Assembly: GCA_937941455.1 (NCBI GenBank)
Contig: CALDHM010000008.1
Location: 62,001-126,000 of the forward strand
Reading direction: 5' to 3'
From: an uncultured Pirellulaceae bacterium
GTDB taxonomy: Bacteria > Planctomycetota > Planctomycetia > Pirellulales > Pirellulaceae
DNA length: 64,000 nucleotides
The notes below the pieces were generated by a model. The model had not been told where the DNA came from. It was given only the letters and a program-made list of their open reading frames with translations, and made no database searches. A program made the translations under genes and the position numbers. Shown in pieces: positions 30,312 through 37,233 of this stretch (position 1 is its first letter; each line of letters begins with the position of its first letter).

Positions 30312-32834
30312 ATGGAGCAGCGACGTATCAAATCGAAACAAGCAAACCAAACGCAGCCACGCCTCCGGTCTCTGGCGCGGTGGCATGCCCTCGGACTGGC
30401 CATGGCGATTCTTGCTGCGGCAGCGCTAGGATATTGGCTTGTCGCTGCGACCTCGAGCGAAGTCGTTGCCACCGCCGCTACTTACGTCGGCAAGCAAACC
30501 TGCGCGGAATGCCACCGCGAGCAGGCGGAGGCCTTCCAGAACTCTCATCATGATCTGGCGATGAATCCAGCCACTCCGGCTACGGTATTGGCCCAGTTCG
30601 ATGGCTCGACGCTTGAGCACTACGGGGTTACATCTCGGATGTACATGGACGGAACGCGATATATGGTGCAAACGGAGGGACCCGACGGGACGATTCAGGA
30701 CTTCGAAGTGAAGTATGTTTTCGGCGTTTCGCCCCTCCAGCAATACTTGGTGGAACTCCAGCCAAGTCCAACCGACCGCCAGCCACATTCGTCCGACCGC
30801 CAGACTCCCCTGGGCCGCTTTCAGGTGCTGCGGGAAAGCTGGGATACAGTGAACAAGCGTTGGTTTTATTTGATGCCTCCCGATGTTGATAGTCGTTTAG
30901 AGCCTGGCGATCCCTTGCACTGGACTGGGCTCTATCAATCGTGGAATACATTTTGCGCGAGTTGTCATAGCACGTACCTGCAAAAAAACTTTGATGCGGC
31001 AAAGGCGACATTCAAGACGACGTTTGCCGAGATCGACGTGAGCTGCGAGGCTTGCCACGGGCCAGGCAGCAACCACGTCGCGTGGGCTCGTTCCCCTTGG
31101 GCCGCTTGGCGAAGCCCCCCCCAACACGGACTAAACCAACTGAAAAACAACGATCCTATCAAACAAATCGAGACATGCGCGCCGTGCCACTCGCGGCGGG
31201 CCGAATTGCACTTGAGCTGGACACCGGGCGACCCCTTGGATCGCCACTTTTCATTGCAGTTGATCGAGTTTCCCATTTACGAACGCGACGGTCAGATTCG
31301 CGATGAAAATTACGAGTACGGATCATTCATCCAAAGCAAAATGCACGCCGCTGGAATTCGCTGCACCGATTGCCACGATCCGCATTCATTGCGGCTCAAA
31401 CATCCCGCGAATCAGCTTTGCACCAATTGCCATCAACATCCGGCCGCCAAGTACGACACCGCGGACCACCACCATCACGCGCCGGGAACCCCCGGCTCCT
31501 ATTGCGTTGACTGTCATATGCCGGAGACGATTTACATGGAGGTCGATCCGCGCCGAGACCACAGCCTGCGGGCTCCGCGACCTGACTTGTCCGTCATGTT
31601 CGGAACGCCCAACGCCTGTACGGGCTGCCATTTGAACCCGAGCAAACTGCCCGAAGACCAACGTCCCGAACTACGGCAATATCTCGATTGGCGAATCGCG
31701 GCCGAACGCGGCAACGCAGTCGTCGCTGCAGAACTAAGGCGGACCGACGAGGCCATGGCGGCGGCCTTCAACCGTTGGTATGGCGAGGAACCTCATGCCG
31801 CTCGAACCGAGTATTACCACGACTTGGCTGCCGTACTGTCGACCCGAGAGGGAAAGTCCGAAGTCGCCGGCCCGCTGGTACGCAATTTGGCCGTGCCGAC
31901 GATGATCCGTGCCTCGGCCTTGTTGAACCTTGCTCGCGAGAGCGACGAAGAATCGCTACGTCTGGCGAGATCGGCCTTGAGAAGCGGCGATTCCCACTTG
32001 ATTCGCGGGGCGATTCCCAGAATCGAGGGAGAGTTGCAGCGTCGGCAAGACGACATCGATTCGTCTTACGTCGAATTACTGACTGAGGTTGCCGAGTTGC
32101 TGAATCACGAGTCGCTCGTAGTGCGAATCGAGGCGACGCGAACGCTGATCGGTTTGCCTCGACCGATTCGCGAGCGCAGCCGCTTGCCCGCTTTCTCGCA
32201 ACGCTGGTCCGCCGCCATCAAGGAATGGCGGCAGGTGCTTGCTGGCCAAGGAGACTGGCCGCAGAACCATGTTCTGCTCGGCGATATTTTCGCCGACGAA
32301 GGTCGCTTTGAGGAGGCAATCCAGGCTTATGAAACGGCGATTCGGATCGGACCCACTTGGGTCGGTGCCCGCACGAACCTCGCCAGCTTGCTCGACGACC
32401 GCCTTGCGGAAAAATCGAATCGGCTGCAAGTTGATCGCAATCTTTCAGCGGCCGACCGCGAACGCTTGCTCGCCGATGCCGAGCGATTGCAACAACGCAT
32501 CACCGAGCTGCGCGAATCCGAATATCAATTGCTGGCAACTGAGATCGCTCGCAGCGGTCAGGAACCGTCAGCCGGCGGGCTTCATTATCGATTTGCCATG
32601 AGTTGTTATTTACGGGGCGAAAAGGACAAGTGCGAGCATCATCTTCTCAAGTCCCACCGCTTGCAGCCGGACGATCCTGCGCCGTTGCTCGGACTCATTG
32701 CCTACTACCGCGACACCGATCAACTGAATCGAGCCATCGAATTCGCCGAAAAACTGGCGGCACTCGACCCGCGCGACCGCCGCTACGCTCAAATTCTCGC
32801 CGGACTGCGTTCTCATCGACCGCCGCAAGATTGA
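30312..32834 (+). CDS. Octahaem c-type cytochrome with C-terminal TPR region
   Basis: An 840-residue membrane-anchored multihaem protein facing the periplasm. A transmembrane anchor lies at about residues 27-46 (LGLAMAILAAAALGYWLVAA). Eight CxxCH haem sites follow: CAECH (64), CASCH (~214), CEACH (~243), CAPCH (~288), CTDCH (~350), CTNCH (~369), CVDCH (~397) and CTGCH (~434). The domain resembles cytochrome c554/NrfA-like modules. The C-terminal ~350 residues are helical and carry TPRs (LLGDIFADEGRFEEAIQAYE and FAEKLAALDPRDRRYAQILA). It may carry electrons in an envelope redox chain; substrate unknown. Start ATG 30312. Confidence 0.9.
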   Translation: MEQRRIKSKQANQTQPRLRSLARWHALGLAMAILAAAALGYWLVAATSSEVVATAATYVGKQTCAECHREQAEAFQNSHHDLAMNPATPATVLAQFDGSTLEHYGVTSRMYMDGTRYMVQTEGPDGTIQDFEVKYVFGVSPLQQYLVELQPSPTDRQPHSSDRQTPLGRFQVLRESWDTVNKRWFYLMPPDVDSRLEPGDPLHWTGLYQSWNTFCASCHSTYLQKNFDAAKATFKTTFAEIDVSCEACHGPGSNHVAWARSPWAAWRSPPQHGLNQLKNNDPIKQIETCAPCHSRRAELHLSWTPGDPLDRHFSLQLIEFPIYERDGQIRDENYEYGSFIQSKMHAAGIRCTDCHDPHSLRLKHPANQLCTNCHQHPAAKYDTADHHHHAPGTPGSYCVDCHMPETIYMEVDPRRDHSLRAPRPDLSVMFGTPNACTGCHLNPSKLPEDQRPELRQYLDWRIAAERGNAVVAAELRRTDEAMAAAFNRWYGEEPHAARTEYYHDLAAVLSTREGKSEVAGPLVRNLAVPTMIRASALLNLARESDEESLRLARSALRSGDSHLIRGAIPRIEGELQRRQDDIDSSYVELLTEVAELLNHESLVVRIEATRTLIGLPRPIRERSRLPAFSQRWSAAIKEWRQVLAGQGDWPQNHVLLGDIFADEGRFEEAIQAYETAIRIGPTWVGARTNLASLLDDRLAEKSNRLQVDRNLSAADRERLLADAERLQQRITELRESEYQLLATEIARSGQEPSAGGLHYRFAMSCYLRGEKDKCEHHLLKSHRLQPDDPAPLLGLIAYYRDTDQLNRAIEFAEKLAALDPRDRRYAQILAGLRSHRPPQD

Positions 32835-33028: not shown

Positions 33029-34031
33029 TTACTCCGGCCACAAAATGAAGAGGTAGCCGCCATTCAAAAGAAGTAGCAACGTTCCTTCGATTCGATGAAG
33101 GAGACGCCCTGTGAAGAGCAATGGGAGAAGCAAGGCCGAAAATTGAACCATGGTGACACTCTCAAACCAGGAAACTCCTGGTGCGCTGAAAGGTGATACC
33201 AGCGAGGCGACACCGAGGATTCCCAAAACGTTGAAAACACTCGAGCCAATCATGTTTCCAAGGGCAATATCGAGTTTTTTCTCAAGGCGGCCACGACGGA
33301 GGTAGCGAGTTCCGGCATGTTGGTTCCTGATGCGATTATGTTCAAGCCGATCCCTGCCTCGCTGACGCCAAATTCCTTGGCCAGTGAAACTGATCTGTTA
33401 ACCAAGATTTGGGCCCCGACGATCAGGATTCCGAAACCTCCCAAAACGTAGGCAAAATCGAGACCCCGTGTTTTGACACTCGGGCGATAAGTGGCTCGCC
33501 CGTTCCCTGTAGTGCGTCGGGACTTTTTGTATCAAGTGTCGCGATTGATTCGCGACGTGCCATGACGACATTCGCCACGGTATAGGCAACGATGCCCAGA
33601 AATAGGACGAAGCCTTCGAAACGGGACAACAAACCGTCACGTAAAAATACCAGAAGGAGCCCTCCGACCGCCAAGGCGATTGGCCCATCGAATTTAATGA
33701 TTTGATGTTGCACGGATATGGGACAGATCAGAGCCGTCAATCCCAAGATGATTCCAATGTTGAACGAATTTGAGCCGGTGACATTGTCAACCGAGATGTC
33801 CCCTTGCTGAGCGAGCGCAGATTTGAGACTAACGACTAACTCCGGGGAACTCGTGCCAAACGCCACGATGGTCAGGCCGACGAGTGGGGGGCTGAGTTCT
33901 GCTCTCAAAGCTACGGATGCCTCCCCGCACGAGACACTCCGCACCGACAAAGAGCACAAGGAGTGCAAGCAAGATAAAAATGATGGAGGTGACCACGGTT
34001 GAATCACCGTCGTGAAGAAATTCCAGATCAC
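33029..34031 (-). pseudogene. Na+/Ca2+ antiporter (CaCA family) broken by frameshifts
   Basis: The protein is split over several frames. The N-terminus (SIIFILLALLVLFVGAECLV) is in one frame; after a surplus G near 33920 it becomes SVALRAELSPPLVGLTIVAF, G-T-S-S-P-E-L-V-V-S and GSNSFNIGIILGLTALICPI. A second shift near 33480 leads to LGGFGILIVGAQILVNRSVS and NIIASGTNMPELATSVVAAL, and a third near 33285 leads to LDIALGNMIGSSVFNVLGIL. Both alpha-repeats (GTSSPE and GTNMPE) are recognisable. Three frameshifts in about 1 kb make a pseudogene more likely than sequencing error. Confidence 0.8.
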
Positions 34032-34518: not shown

Positions 34519-35256
34519 TCACTTCGGTCCGTGATGGTTAGGAAGATTCGCAGGCTCGCCCCCGCTTCTTCTGCGGTGATGTTCGTAGGCGTCGTACAAA
34601 CGGTCGAAAGCGGCGCGGGGAATGCCGTGGCATTTATCCCAGGCGTTGGCCAGTTCTTCATCAGTCAATCGCAGGTCACTGCTCGCTTGCAAGGTTGCGG
34701 CCAACTCGGCAAACTGCCGACGATTCGGCTCGAGTCGGACGAACACGGGAATGCCGATATCCAGGTCCGTGTGTAGCGTGACCATAAGTTTGGCCGACGC
34801 TGCGCGCAATACGCGAGCCCAACGCCGACGATGCCACCAACCTAGTCGCTCCCAGCCATCAATAATCCAGATAGGTTGCTGCTGACGACAGAGGACGCGA
34901 AATTTGTCGAGAAATTCGGAAGGTTTCAATAAAGGGGAGGCATCATCAAGCGAACGGAGTTCGCCATCGGGGAGTACTTCGGCGGCTTCGACGCCGAGGC
35001 GCCGCCAGCAGTGGTCGAGCAAATTTGAGCGTCGCGAGCGAATTGTCACCAACAGGACTGGATGATTGCCCGATAGTCGTCGCGCCAGATCGATCGCCAG
35101 TGTCGTTTTACCGATGCCATGGGGACCGATGATTGCTCCGCGAAACCGCTGAGCCGTCCATCGCTGGAGGAGACTCTCTGGCGTCAGCGTTGGATCATAA
35201 AGGTAAGGAACTCGGCCTGCGGCGATGTTTGAAGCAGAGAACGGGTTAACCGTCAT
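34519..35256 (-). CDS. P-loop ATPase of a three-gene coupled set
   Basis: A 245-residue soluble AAA/ExeA-like NTPase. Walker A is GAIIGPHGIGKTTLA (about 40-54) and Walker B is the hydrophobic IWIIDGWERL (about 128-137). The C-terminal third is helical and basic, ending R-R-R-S-G-G-E-P-A-N-L-P-N-H. No membrane segment or DNA-binding motif is seen. Its ATG overlaps the stop of the upstream gene as ATGA, so translation is coupled to the small arrestin-like protein. It probably drives conformational change in a complex with the two arrestin-like proteins. Its exact ATPase clade is unknown. Confidence 0.8.
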   Translation of the reverse strand: MTVNPFSASNIAAGRVPYLYDPTLTPESLLQRWTAQRFRGAIIGPHGIGKTTLAIDLARRLSGNHPVLLVTIRSRRSNLLDHCWRRLGVEAAEVLPDGELRSLDDASPLLKPSEFLDKFRVLCRQQQPIWIIDGWERLGWWHRRRWARVLRAASAKLMVTLHTDLDIGIPVFVRLEPNRRQFAELAATLQASSDLRLTDEELANAWDKCHGIPRAAFDRLYDAYEHHRRRSGGEPANLPNHHGPK

Positions 35257-35618
35257 AACAACTGAGGCGTGCTGACCAGCCGAAACGGAAAAGTAAATGA
35301 GTATTCGGAGTCATCATTCGCAAACACGCGGACCTTGACCATCCACTCGATTTTGAGAATCTCACCTCGATAGGATTGGGGCGTGCTGGGGAGTCGGGTC
35401 ATGATCGAATATTCGATCGGAGCCCCCGTGGTCAGTCCCAAGTCGCCGACAACCAAGCGATCGAAAAAGTGGAGCCCGATATCCTGGTCCCCTTTGCCTT
35501 CGGTCACCCACATGACACTTGTTTCGATGGCCTGCACCTGGCATTGTCGCGGATCGACGGCGCAGACGCATGACAATTCGGTGCCGCTGAGATAGGCGGG
35601 TTGGAGACCACTAACCAT
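35253..35618 (-). CDS. Small arrestin-like beta-sandwich protein (inferred fold)
   Basis: A 121-residue protein with no signal or membrane segment. The pattern I-E-Y-S-I-M-T-R-L-P-S-T-P-Q-S-Y-R-G then ILKIEWMVKVRVFANDD and FTFPFRLVS resembles arrestin/Vps26-type domains and closely parallels the C-terminal domain of the preceding membrane protein (P-H-S-F..QIQWKIVVHTH..FEQSFPVIV). The long frame upstream to 35741 is not used; ATG 35618 overlaps the stop of the membrane gene by one base (TGATG), and its own stop overlaps the ATPase start. Fold assignment is inference. Confidence 0.7.
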   Translation of the reverse strand: MVSGLQPAYLSGTELSCVCAVDPRQCQVQAIETSVMWVTEGKGDQDIGLHFFDRLVVGDLGLTTGAPIEYSIMTRLPSTPQSYRGEILKIEWMVKVRVFANDDSEYSFTFPFRLVSTPQLL

Positions 35619-36685
35619 CACGCTGAGCGGATGGCGGGGGAGGGCAAGTGGCCGTTGGCTTTCGGCGGAGCGACGATAACTGGAAAGCTCTGCTCGAAAT
35701 GGGGCCAACCCTTGGCGTGAGTATGTACGACGATCTTCCATTGAATCTGATTATTTTTCGAGGCGAAACTGTGGGGGGCCGACTCAGGGATTTCGAATTC
35801 GAAATCGCATTCGAACTTCGCGGTGGGTGAGACGTCGACGCCCCGTTGTCGCAACAAGCGATAATTTTGTACGACGCGACGTTCGGTTTGGATGTCGGTT
35901 CCGCGTGTGAAGGTCGAGATTTCTTCACAGATTAACAAAACTTCCAGGAGTTTGAAACGAAATCTGCCTGGCTGCCGCAAAAAAAACCGACATTTTTTGC
36001 CGGGTTGTAAGGGAAACATCGAGATTTCAATGTTCGTTGTCCCGAACGCCGACAGGCGTAATGCCTGGCGAAAAAAGGCGATCGCGGCCCAAATCCCGAT
36101 GCCAAGCGCGACCCACCCCATGGCAACAGCGGCAAAGTCAACCCCGGTTGCCAAAGAACGAACAAGGCGAATCGCCGAAATGGTGGCGATCAGAAAGCCA
36201 GCTAGCATCGCTACGGCCGCCAGCAGCAACCAGCCGTAAGTGCGTCGACGCGACGGGAGCAGAAAAGGAAGCTGCGTGCCCGCTCGAATCGGATGGGGAA
36301 ATTTGGGGATCGTCGGCGCGACAGAATCACTTGTTCGTTCCTCGCGAAACAAGTCCAATTCTCCGACGGCCGACGCCAGTGCCTCCCGCCGCTCGCGCGA
36401 GGCACTCACGCGCCACAACGCCAAAAACAGTCGATAGGCGCCAATGCAGAGTGCCAGAATGGCTAGCGAAATGCGGATCGCCAGTTCGCCGGTCGTGTAC
36501 AGTTCGAGATCGTCGGTCTGGCGCCGCTCGAAATACTGGAAAGCCAGAACGGCCACGAGGAAAACGAAGCCGCCGAGGATCAATACGGAGGCAACACCAA
36601 TTTCCACGTAGCCGAACCAGCGACCGCGGCTGGAAGCGGCAAACGTTTTCTGACCTGCGTAGAGAAATCTGGACCAGAACCGCAA
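35618..36685 (-). CDS. Membrane protein with C-terminal arrestin-like domain
   Basis: A 355-residue protein, first of the coupled trio. It has four predicted transmembrane helices: about 27-47 (IGVASVLILGGFVFLVAVLA), 68-88 (ISLAILALCIGAYRLFLALW), 150-170 (WLLLAAVAMLAGFLIATISA) and 184-204 (FAAVAMGWVALGIGIWAAIA). A soluble beta-rich C-terminal domain (about 215-345) follows, with FECDFEFEIPESAPHSF and QIQWKIVVHTHAKGWPHFEQ. The TTG start at 36685 has GAGG eight bases upstream. The family resembles DUF3592-type proteins by general look only. Confidence 0.7.
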   Translation of the reverse strand: MRFWSRFLYAGQKTFAASSRGRWFGYVEIGVASVLILGGFVFLVAVLAFQYFERRQTDDLELYTTGELAIRISLAILALCIGAYRLFLALWRVSASRERREALASAVGELDLFREERTSDSVAPTIPKFPHPIRAGTQLPFLLPSRRRTYGWLLLAAVAMLAGFLIATISAIRLVRSLATGVDFAAVAMGWVALGIGIWAAIAFFRQALRLSAFGTTNIEISMFPLQPGKKCRFFLRQPGRFRFKLLEVLLICEEISTFTRGTDIQTERRVVQNYRLLRQRGVDVSPTAKFECDFEFEIPESAPHSFASKNNQIQWKIVVHTHAKGWPHFEQSFPVIVAPPKANGHLPSPAIRSA

Positions 36686-36840: not shown

Positions 36841-37116
36841 CTAGTGCGGTTTGCCATCGCCGGACTGACGCCGGAAACCGATCGCCTCGAGAGCCCTGTA
36901 GACTTCCTCCAAGGTTTTTTCCCCAAAATTGGAAATGCTGAGCAACTCCTCGCGCGTCGTGTTCAACAAGTCCTCGACCGTAAAAATTCCACGTTCTTCC
37001 AAACAATTGGTTGTGCGGACGGTCAAGCCGATTTCGGCGGTACTGAGGTCGAGTTTTTCTTTGAGATTTCGATTGGCTTCCTCGATCCTACTCAGCGGAA
37101 TGCGTGTGCGCGCCAT
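36841..37116 (-). CDS. Stand-alone RNA polymerase alpha-subunit C-terminal-like domain
   Basis: A 91-residue protein whose core matches the alpha-CTD: IGLTVRTTNCLEERGIFTVE then D-L-L, ELLSISNFGEKTLEEVYRAL and EAIGF. It lacks the alpha N-terminal assembly domains. In RNA polymerase this fold binds UP-element DNA and activators through two helix-hairpin-helix motifs; here it may bind DNA or compete for such contacts. ATG 37116 is preceded by GGAGGG, a good ribosome site; the longer frame to 37230 is not used. It lies upstream of the membrane gene on the same strand and diverges from the helicase gene. Confidence 0.88.
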   Translation of the reverse strand: MARTRIPLSRIEEANRNLKEKLDLSTAEIGLTVRTTNCLEERGIFTVEDLLNTTREELLSISNFGEKTLEEVYRALEAIGFRRQSGDGKPH

Positions 37117-37233
37117 GTGATTCCCTCCAAGTGTGTTCTCCCAGCGTGCGATGCGTCCTTGTTCGACGCGACCAAAAATATAACATAGGATCGCGGAACG
37201 AAAAGCAGACTCGGCCACGGACGCTAGCAAGCA

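Follow-up and report, generated by a model that had tools for sequence, protein, structure and literature searches.

A gene trio recurrent in Planctomycetota, with predicted features of a membrane-anchored arrestin divided between two genes and a P-loop NTPase

The locus described here lies in a 64,000-nucleotide stretch of DNA, hereafter the window, from an uncultured Pirellulaceae bacterium (assembly GCA_937941455.1, contig CALDHM010000008.1), whose genome comprises 4.04 Mb in 77 contigs, with the window on contig 8. Three genes, P1, P2, and P3, follow one another in this order, head to tail, on the minus strand. P1 (35618..36685, -) has a TTG start and encodes a 355-residue protein, predicted from its open reading frame, structural model, hydropathy and charge, and homologs to be a four-helix membrane protein with a C-terminal cytoplasmic arrestin-fold domain. 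P2 (35253..35618, -; 121 residues) is a predicted free single-lobe arrestin-fold protein, recognized by its open reading frame, its model, and its matches to arrestin, TXNIP, Spo0M, and VPS26, and P3 (34519..35256, -; 245 residues) is a small predicted P-loop nucleoside triphosphatase (NTPase), recognized by its open reading frame, a Pfam AAA_25 match, and the conservation of its family. The overlaps of one base between P1 and P2 (TGATG; 35618..35618, -) and of four bases between P2 and P3 (ATGA; 35253..35256, -), which a preliminary description of this DNA had claimed, can be read in the sequence at these positions. The TTG start of P1 is supported by the recurrence of the same N-terminal sequence in a close relative (L002; L and G numbers denote the loci and genomes compared in this work). 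With E values up to 1 allowed, NCBIfam gave nothing for either P1 or P2 and only weak P-loop rows for P3; by the Pfam and NCBIfam searches made here, the three families have no specific model.

The AlphaFold2 model of P1 (48 rows, mean predicted local distance difference test score (pLDDT) 82.1) contains four long helices, at residues 21-56, 65-94, 151-177, and 184-214, followed by a beta domain from about residue 216 to 340 in which ten-residue pLDDT means are 91-98 for residues 221-340. On the grounds of pLDDT, Foldseek, and structural alignment, residues 216-340 (35666..36040, -) are assigned to the arrestin-fold domain, and P300, H305, F307, N312, and W316 are invariant in 23 sequences. 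Over 48 P1 sequences, the N-terminus has a median net charge of +6, loop 1-2 of -1, loop 2-3 of +2 (positive in 69% of the rows), and loop 3-4 of 0. Because of this charge pattern and the four helices, the N-terminus, loop 2-3, and the arrestin domain are predicted to be cytoplasmic, and the loop that carries the DUF3592 domain in P1 relatives is predicted to face the outside of the membrane. DUF3592 (PF12158) defines a known group of membrane proteins and is found in many P1 relatives, namely in 8 of 48 P1 rows of the order set and in 12 of 17 rows of the diverse P1 set, where the extra segment sits between the first and second transmembrane helices (TM1 and TM2) in the alignment. Four relatives (L020, L024, L136, L173) pass the DUF3592 cut-off of Pfam and one (L021) fails it; the window P1 has no Pfam match to DUF3592, and the alignment has a gap at that place in P1 and its close relatives. 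The outer part of P1 is variable in other ways: two DUF3592 domains are present in L173:5728-7908 (+) and, judging by alignment, apparently in the P1 of L137:6658-8466 (-), and the P1 of L136:5040-6509 (+) has an additional N-terminal hydrophobic stretch in the alignment.

The third and fourth helices of the P1 model form a hairpin (TM3-TM4, residues 151-214; 36044..36235, -) that apparently separates the first strand of the arrestin domain from the second. It is preceded by a strand region (residues 136-146; 36248..36280, -), delimited by conservation and structural alignment, with the family motif SPGxxLxYRLP, in which G136 and L143 are invariant in 48 P1 sequences. As many as 34 of the 50 listed P1 structural alignments start at residue 139-141, in loop 2-3, and end near residues 340-355, after TM4, and the first aligned part in the VPS26 and arrestin C-lobe rows is this SPGxxLxYRLP segment. 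The alignment to arrestin-1 starts at residue 186 for P1 and only at residue 206 for P2. From these alignment ranges of P1 and P2, TM3-TM4 seems to interrupt the lobe past its first strand, close to arrestin-1 residues 195-203. Bovine arrestin-1 has two C-edge loops that have been shown to insert into the membrane, one of which is the 197-loop (F197-P202; PMC5321764).

The AlphaFold2 model of P2 (57 rows, mean pLDDT 92.6, predicted template modelling score 0.84) is almost entirely beta, and P77, P80, G85, W92, and F112 are invariant in 24 P2 sequences. Foldseek searches of the PDB gave the N-lobe of ARRDC3 as the best match of both proteins, at 2.2e-9 for P1 and 1.2e-6 for P2; Spo0M (5cl2) followed at 2.7e-8 for P1, and visual arrestin, TXNIP, Spo0M (5cl2; 5.2e-5), and VPS26C for P2. 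The preliminary description had proposed the same fold for the P1 domain and P2, and this holds in the models, both of which align by VIA-align to the same VPS26B chain (3lh9) with a root-mean-square deviation (rmsd) of 2.2 A, over 129 residues for P1 (Z 13.0) and 115 residues for P2 (Z 12.2). P1 aligns to ARRDC3 with Z 13.2 and rmsd 3.3 over 135. Two structural rows are of other kinds, P2 also matching a carbohydrate-binding module (Z 10.6) and P1 a Kir channel (E 1.3e-5); the remaining listed PDB rows are arrestins, TXNIP/ARRDC3, ARRD-6, Spo0M, VPS26, or Rgp1. The P2 profile searched against PDB sequences gave 16 rows, the best 11 of which are beta-arrestins (E 0.033-0.13), with TXNIP and VPS26C below them. 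In Pfam, the window P1 scores 14.6 bits against a cut-off of 27.7 for Arrestin_C (E 0.041) and 13.6 against 24.9 for Arrestin_N (E 0.07), the window P2 scores 13.3 against 27.7 for Arrestin_C (E 0.11) and matches Rgp1 at E 0.17, and neither has a Spo0M (PF07070) row at E up to 1. Among 57 P2 members at E<0.01, Arrestin_C is matched by 13 (best 5e-5), Arrestin_N by 2, and PilZ by 2. The spacing P-x-S-(Y/F) ... I-x-W ... F-P that had been noticed in P1 and P2 is present and conserved in both families. Chance is not enough to account for it, given that both families match arrestin-fold structures and that the trio is found repeatedly in the phylum; the P-x-S-(Y/F) ... I-x-(W/Y) pattern resembles the arrestin signature. 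Direct homology of P1 and P2 was sought by profile comparison with hhalign and not found; because the families are not detectably similar by sequence, their common fold rests on the models. The models place one lobe in P1 and the other in P2, not both in one chain. The predicted anatomy of the trio, comprising gene order, folds, and topology, is well supported.

The two lobes do occur together elsewhere. In one genome (G248; L168/L173), P1 and P2 form a single 726-residue frame in which P2 follows a P1 part made up of two DUF3592 domains, membrane helices, and the arrestin lobe; this fusion passes the Pfam cut-off only for DUF3592. A second planctomycete architecture is found in 4 of 11 loci with odd matches (L172, L176, L177, L182), where a P2-like lobe, a membrane segment, and a P1-like lobe make up one frame tied to P1 and P2 by profile. 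Three of these single-chain relatives were scanned with Pfam (L172 was left out): L176:6271-7344 (+) exceeds the cut-offs of Arrestin_N (53.6 bits vs 24.9; 3.3e-14), Arrestin_C (49.3 vs 27.7; 7.9e-13), and Spo0M (3.5e-11), L177:5713-7194 (+) likewise exceeds them with 46.3 bits for Arrestin_N and 36.4 for Arrestin_C and also passes Spo0M, and L182:5533-6558 (-) passes Arrestin_N (44.9 bits) and fails Arrestin_C (25.3 vs 27.7). Because single-chain relatives with both lobes pass arrestin cut-offs (two of the three scanned pass both Arrestin_N and Arrestin_C), the trio is tied to the arrestin clan by sequence; together with the fusion they show both lobes joined in nature. At 1e-15, P3 was not matched in the genomes that carry L176, L177, and L182 (G077, G364, and G064). 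Immediately upstream of the two-lobe protein of L177 is a P-loop ATPase (L177:5067-5690, +) with weak similarity to P3 (6.6e-6). A plasmid search for the single-chain form gave no match, and plasmid homologs of the trio came to one match, to the DUF3592 part, in Nostoc.

P3 carries a Walker A motif (GPHGIGKT, residues 44-51; 35104..35127, -) in which G44, G47, G49, and K50 are invariant in both alignments of 17 sequences (A3 and A8), and a Walker B-like segment (WIIDGWERL, residues 130-138; 34843..34869, -) in which A8 has both D133 and G134 invariant and A3 has an invariant G134 and a D133 conserved to at least 90%. H162 is invariant, and the length is mostly ~200-260 residues in these alignments. 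An N-terminal NPF motif (residues 4-6; 35239..35247, -) is present in 17 of 17 sequences in both A3 and A8 and near the N-terminus of 83 of 88 P3 proteins from 100 scanned loci, including L093, where an NPL precedes the NPF. In eukaryotes, NPF motifs bind EH domains, and it is a guess that the conserved NPF segment of P3 is a docking tag. In Pfam, AAA_25 is the sole AAA-type model that the window P3 passes (28.8 bits vs a cut-off of 27), with AAA_22 (PF13401; 24.5 vs 27) and NACHT (19.0 vs 26.7) below their cut-offs; among 17 P3 members at E<0.001, NACHT is matched by 8 (best 8.6e-6), AAA_16 by 6, AAA_25 by 5, and AAA_22 by 4. With AAA_22 under its cut-off and NACHT the commonest match among the members, the ExeA-like label that P3 had been given is not established, and P3 is best described as a predicted P-loop NTPase of no settled family with a putative ATPase role. 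The window genome has one strong P3 match (2.7e-60), the next being at 4.3e-6.

The trio was followed through 60 genomes of the order, that is, the window's own and 59 relatives. P1 was matched in 58, in two of which (G035 and G041) the match was short and weak (~1e-6), so that canonical P1 (E at most 2.9e-22) is counted in 56. P2 adjoins P1 and shares its strand in 55 of these 56 (the exception is G045), P3 occurs in all 56 and in none of the four others, and P3 adjoins P2 in 44. Among the four genomes without canonical P1, G024 and G031 have none of the three genes, and G035 and G041 retain a P2-type match. A second, diverged whole trio with a short P1, P2, and P3 (L180:5151-7030, -) is present in G025, which also carries the standard trio, and search rows suggest that G002, G004, G016, G030, and G037 may also carry a second copy of this kind. 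A search of a contig collection returned 232 P2 relatives; of the best 80 loci, 77 are planctomycetes by title and three (L061, L085, L117) are labelled only as bacterium, with P1 upstream of P2 in 78 and P3 downstream in 67, plus L090, where P3 lies inside a longer frame.

Across the phylum, 392 genomes were sampled with thresholds of 1e-70 for the best E of canonical P1 (the next genome being at 8e-45), 1e-15 for P3, and 1e-10 for P2. A broad P1 profile matched 129 of the 392 at E at most 1e-5, many over DUF3592 or the arrestin part alone; canonical P1 was found in 31, P3 in 34, and P2 in 43. All 31 genomes with canonical P1 have P2 and P3, and P3 occurs in 3 of the 361 others: G413, with a P1 variant and P2 close by; G361, where a P1-type match shares the contig and strand of P3; and G337, with a partial match. 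Every genome of the same order in this sample (12 of 12) has canonical P1. Among twelve distant loci picked by a P2 match (L130-L141), P1 is present in all and P3 in 10, and among 30 picked by P1 (L142-L171), P2 is present in 29 and P3 in 26. The trio that had been described from the window alone therefore recurs well beyond its genome, with P3 in 56 of 56 order genomes and 31 of 31 phylum genomes that have canonical P1, and its genetic linkage is well supported.

No larger conserved operon emerged: across 20 neighbourhoods the trio alone is constant, with not every shared open reading frame annotated. Just upstream of the trio in the window lies a gene for a free-standing RNA polymerase alpha C-terminal domain protein (36841-37230, -), relatives of which are found in 10 of 19 other neighbourhoods; relatives of a UvrD helicase are found in 8 and of a PQQ-type (pyrroloquinoline quinone) beta-propeller in 10-11. 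Directly downstream of P3 is a Na_Ca_ex sodium/calcium exchanger (33029-34031, -) broken into three frames of 202, 64, and 74 residues, as would result from gene decay or from errors in the assembly, and beyond it an 840-residue multihaem cytochrome c-like protein with tetratricopeptide repeats (30312-32834, +). Three genomes belonging to a single genus (G083, G195, G251) retain P3 although it no longer lies with the other two genes. Eight loci with P3 away from P1-P2 were examined, and the tested neighbours of the relocated P3 are mostly unrelated; they include an AcrB pump, a UvrA-like protein, and an aminotransferase.

The reading that we favour, at a probability of about 0.4, is that the trio encodes a membrane-anchored arrestin split over two genes, with a P-loop ATPase of its own, that serves as a client-binding adaptor. 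That the three products act together is the strongest inference; the near-perfect co-occurrence and the natural fusions strengthen the idea of a membrane-tethered complex raised in the preliminary description, the complex itself being predicted. We also infer complex formation, lobe docking, the ATPase role, the client, and the mechanism, as follows. The P1 lobe would sit on the cytoplasmic face of the membrane, held by a transmembrane hairpin that seems to take the place of the membrane-dipping loop of eukaryotic arrestins. P2 would be the second, soluble lobe, which docks on P1 and completes a client-binding saddle, and the soluble P3, with the NPF segment at its N-terminus as a candidate docking tag, would drive loading or release of P2 or the client through an energy-driven cycle. 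In relatives with DUF3592, the extracytoplasmic domain could gate the complex. The likeliest job would be that of an adaptor capturing and remodelling or sorting integral membrane proteins at the cytoplasmic membrane. The more ambitious form of this proposal, a membrane-protein sorting machine in which a dedicated ATPase cycle closes and opens the lobes of a transmembrane split arrestin that selects inner-membrane clients as arrestin and retromer do, and which predates or parallels them, is improbable.

Several observations count against the split-arrestin adaptor. The window proteins fall under every Pfam arrestin cut-off, none of 48 P1 members matched an arrestin model at E<0.01, and the P1 and P2 family profiles show no detectable similarity to each other (hhalign probability 0.4%). 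The identity of the lobes is ambiguous, as free P2 favours Arrestin_C (13 of 57) over Arrestin_N (2 of 57), whereas in the single-chain relatives the P2-like lobe is N-terminal and matches Arrestin_N, and the G248 fusion has the reverse order. That P1-P2 fusion comes from a single genome, 90% complete and 7% contaminated, and the correspondence between the hairpin and the 197-loop comes from alignment ranges, not coordinates. P3 is not adjacent to P2 in 12 of the 56 order genomes, some of which may be contig breaks. Three of the eight relocated-P3 loci share a secreted-type neighbour downstream of P3, a low-complexity protein with a signal-like N-terminus (L192:6783-7853, +; L193:4488-5453, -; L196:3392-4951, +; 42% identity between the first two, 8e-66), for which a shared ancestral relocation of P3 is the likeliest cause. 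The phylum absences are soft, as the best 4 (P1), 7 (P3), and 10 (P2) candidates per genome were scored, and the P1-P3 co-occurrence in the 392 genomes (Fisher p 7e-43) is not corrected for relatedness. Canonical P1 is present in only 4 of 28 listed genomes that belong to the class but not to the order, so that the system is patchy beyond the order.

A doubtful alternative casts the trio as an envelope sensor and signalling switch, in which P1 senses the outside through DUF3592, P2 relays, and P3 is a small STAND/NACHT-like switch, not a motor. The frequency of DUF3592 in the diverse P1 set (12 of 17 rows; 8 of 48 in the order) and that of NACHT, which more P3 members match than any other Pfam model (8 of 17), speak for it, as does the P3 segment VDGxEQL, which we take to resemble a NACHT-type Walker B. 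Sensing by DUF3592 could not be general, however, with the window P1 and its close relatives lacking the domain; P3, at its usual length, would not accommodate large repeat domains; and no constant regulator, kinase, or output gene was identified in the 20 partially annotated neighbourhoods.

It is unlikely that the trio is a quality control or insertion aid in which the arrestin lobes hold membrane proteins and P3 supplies the energy to extract or fold them, with no sorting. A membrane anchor, a soluble beta-sandwich, and an ATPase would suit such a task, and both the single strong P3 of the window genome and the presence of the trio in 56 of 60 order genomes fit with it; yet four of these 60 genomes and most of the sampled phylum manage without the trio, and the same neighbourhoods, with their partial annotation, revealed no protease or chaperone gene as a constant neighbour.

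An equally unpromising alternative treats the arrestin fold as a generic beta-sandwich scaffold in a complex with an unrelated envelope job and nothing arrestin-like about it. The weak sequence similarity of the window proteins to arrestins and the carbohydrate-binding module and Kir channel rows would be accommodated by it, but the passing of the Arrestin_N, Arrestin_C, and Spo0M cut-offs by two of the three scanned single-chain relatives and the arrestin-type character of every other listed PDB row argue otherwise. An anti-phage defence module, suggested by the compactness of the three-gene unit and its pairing of a P-loop NTPase with a membrane protein, is very improbable and was rejected, since the PADLOC rows were all weak (mostly P-loop matches for P3, best 2.3e-4, with Csm3 matched by one P2 at 0.0058 and nothing by P1) and the trio is broadly present in the order (56 of 60 genomes), whereas defence islands are patchy in distribution.

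The split-arrestin adaptor can be set beside known members of the fold. Spo0M of Bacillus subtilis (PF07070) is a bacterial arrestin-clan protein whose structure (5cl2) matches both P1 and P2 and whose Pfam cut-off is passed by two single-chain relatives of the trio (L176, L177). Spo0M is a single soluble chain; in the trio the lobes lie in two proteins, one of them membrane-integral, and an ATPase co-occurs. The alpha-arrestins, TXNIP/ARRDC3, and the visual and beta-arrestins have their fold in common with P1 and P2, the ARRDC3 N-lobe being the best Foldseek match of both. The alpha-, visual, and beta-arrestins are eukaryotic, receptor-binding proteins with two lobes in one soluble chain, and we know of no dedicated ATPase among eukaryotic arrestins. 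VPS26 of retromer and VPS26C of retriever also share the fold of the P1 and P2 models; VPS26 is a client-selecting adaptor at membranes and acts with VPS35 and VPS29.

Arrestin-clan proteins were already known in bacteria: Spo0M has been described as one (PMC2515105, PMC5325327), and it is reported to regulate sporulation and to interact with cell-division proteins of the cytoskeleton (PMC5325327). A control search with Pfam Arrestin_C gave matches in B. subtilis and Haloferax volcanii, both under the cut-off. Among the matches listed from the open-licence literature in PMC (PubMed Central), no description of a membrane-integral two-gene arrestin with an ATPase was found; by term search, the main text of the P. 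limnophila essential-gene paper (PMC10632474) makes no mention of arrestin or DUF3592, and a review (PMC2699828) makes none of bacteria or Spo0M.

The trio looks like an unnamed bacterial relative of the animal and yeast adaptors that handle membrane proteins. Arrestin-fold adaptors are central to membrane-protein handling in eukaryotes; to our knowledge, bacterial arrestin relatives have been little studied beyond Spo0M. Planctomycetota are known for their unusual cell organization. The trio would give a context to DUF3592 and to three families for which Pfam and NCBIfam hold no specific model and, kept as it is in 56 of 60 genomes of the order, it offers a testable entry to the roles of arrestins in the absence of eukaryotic receptors.

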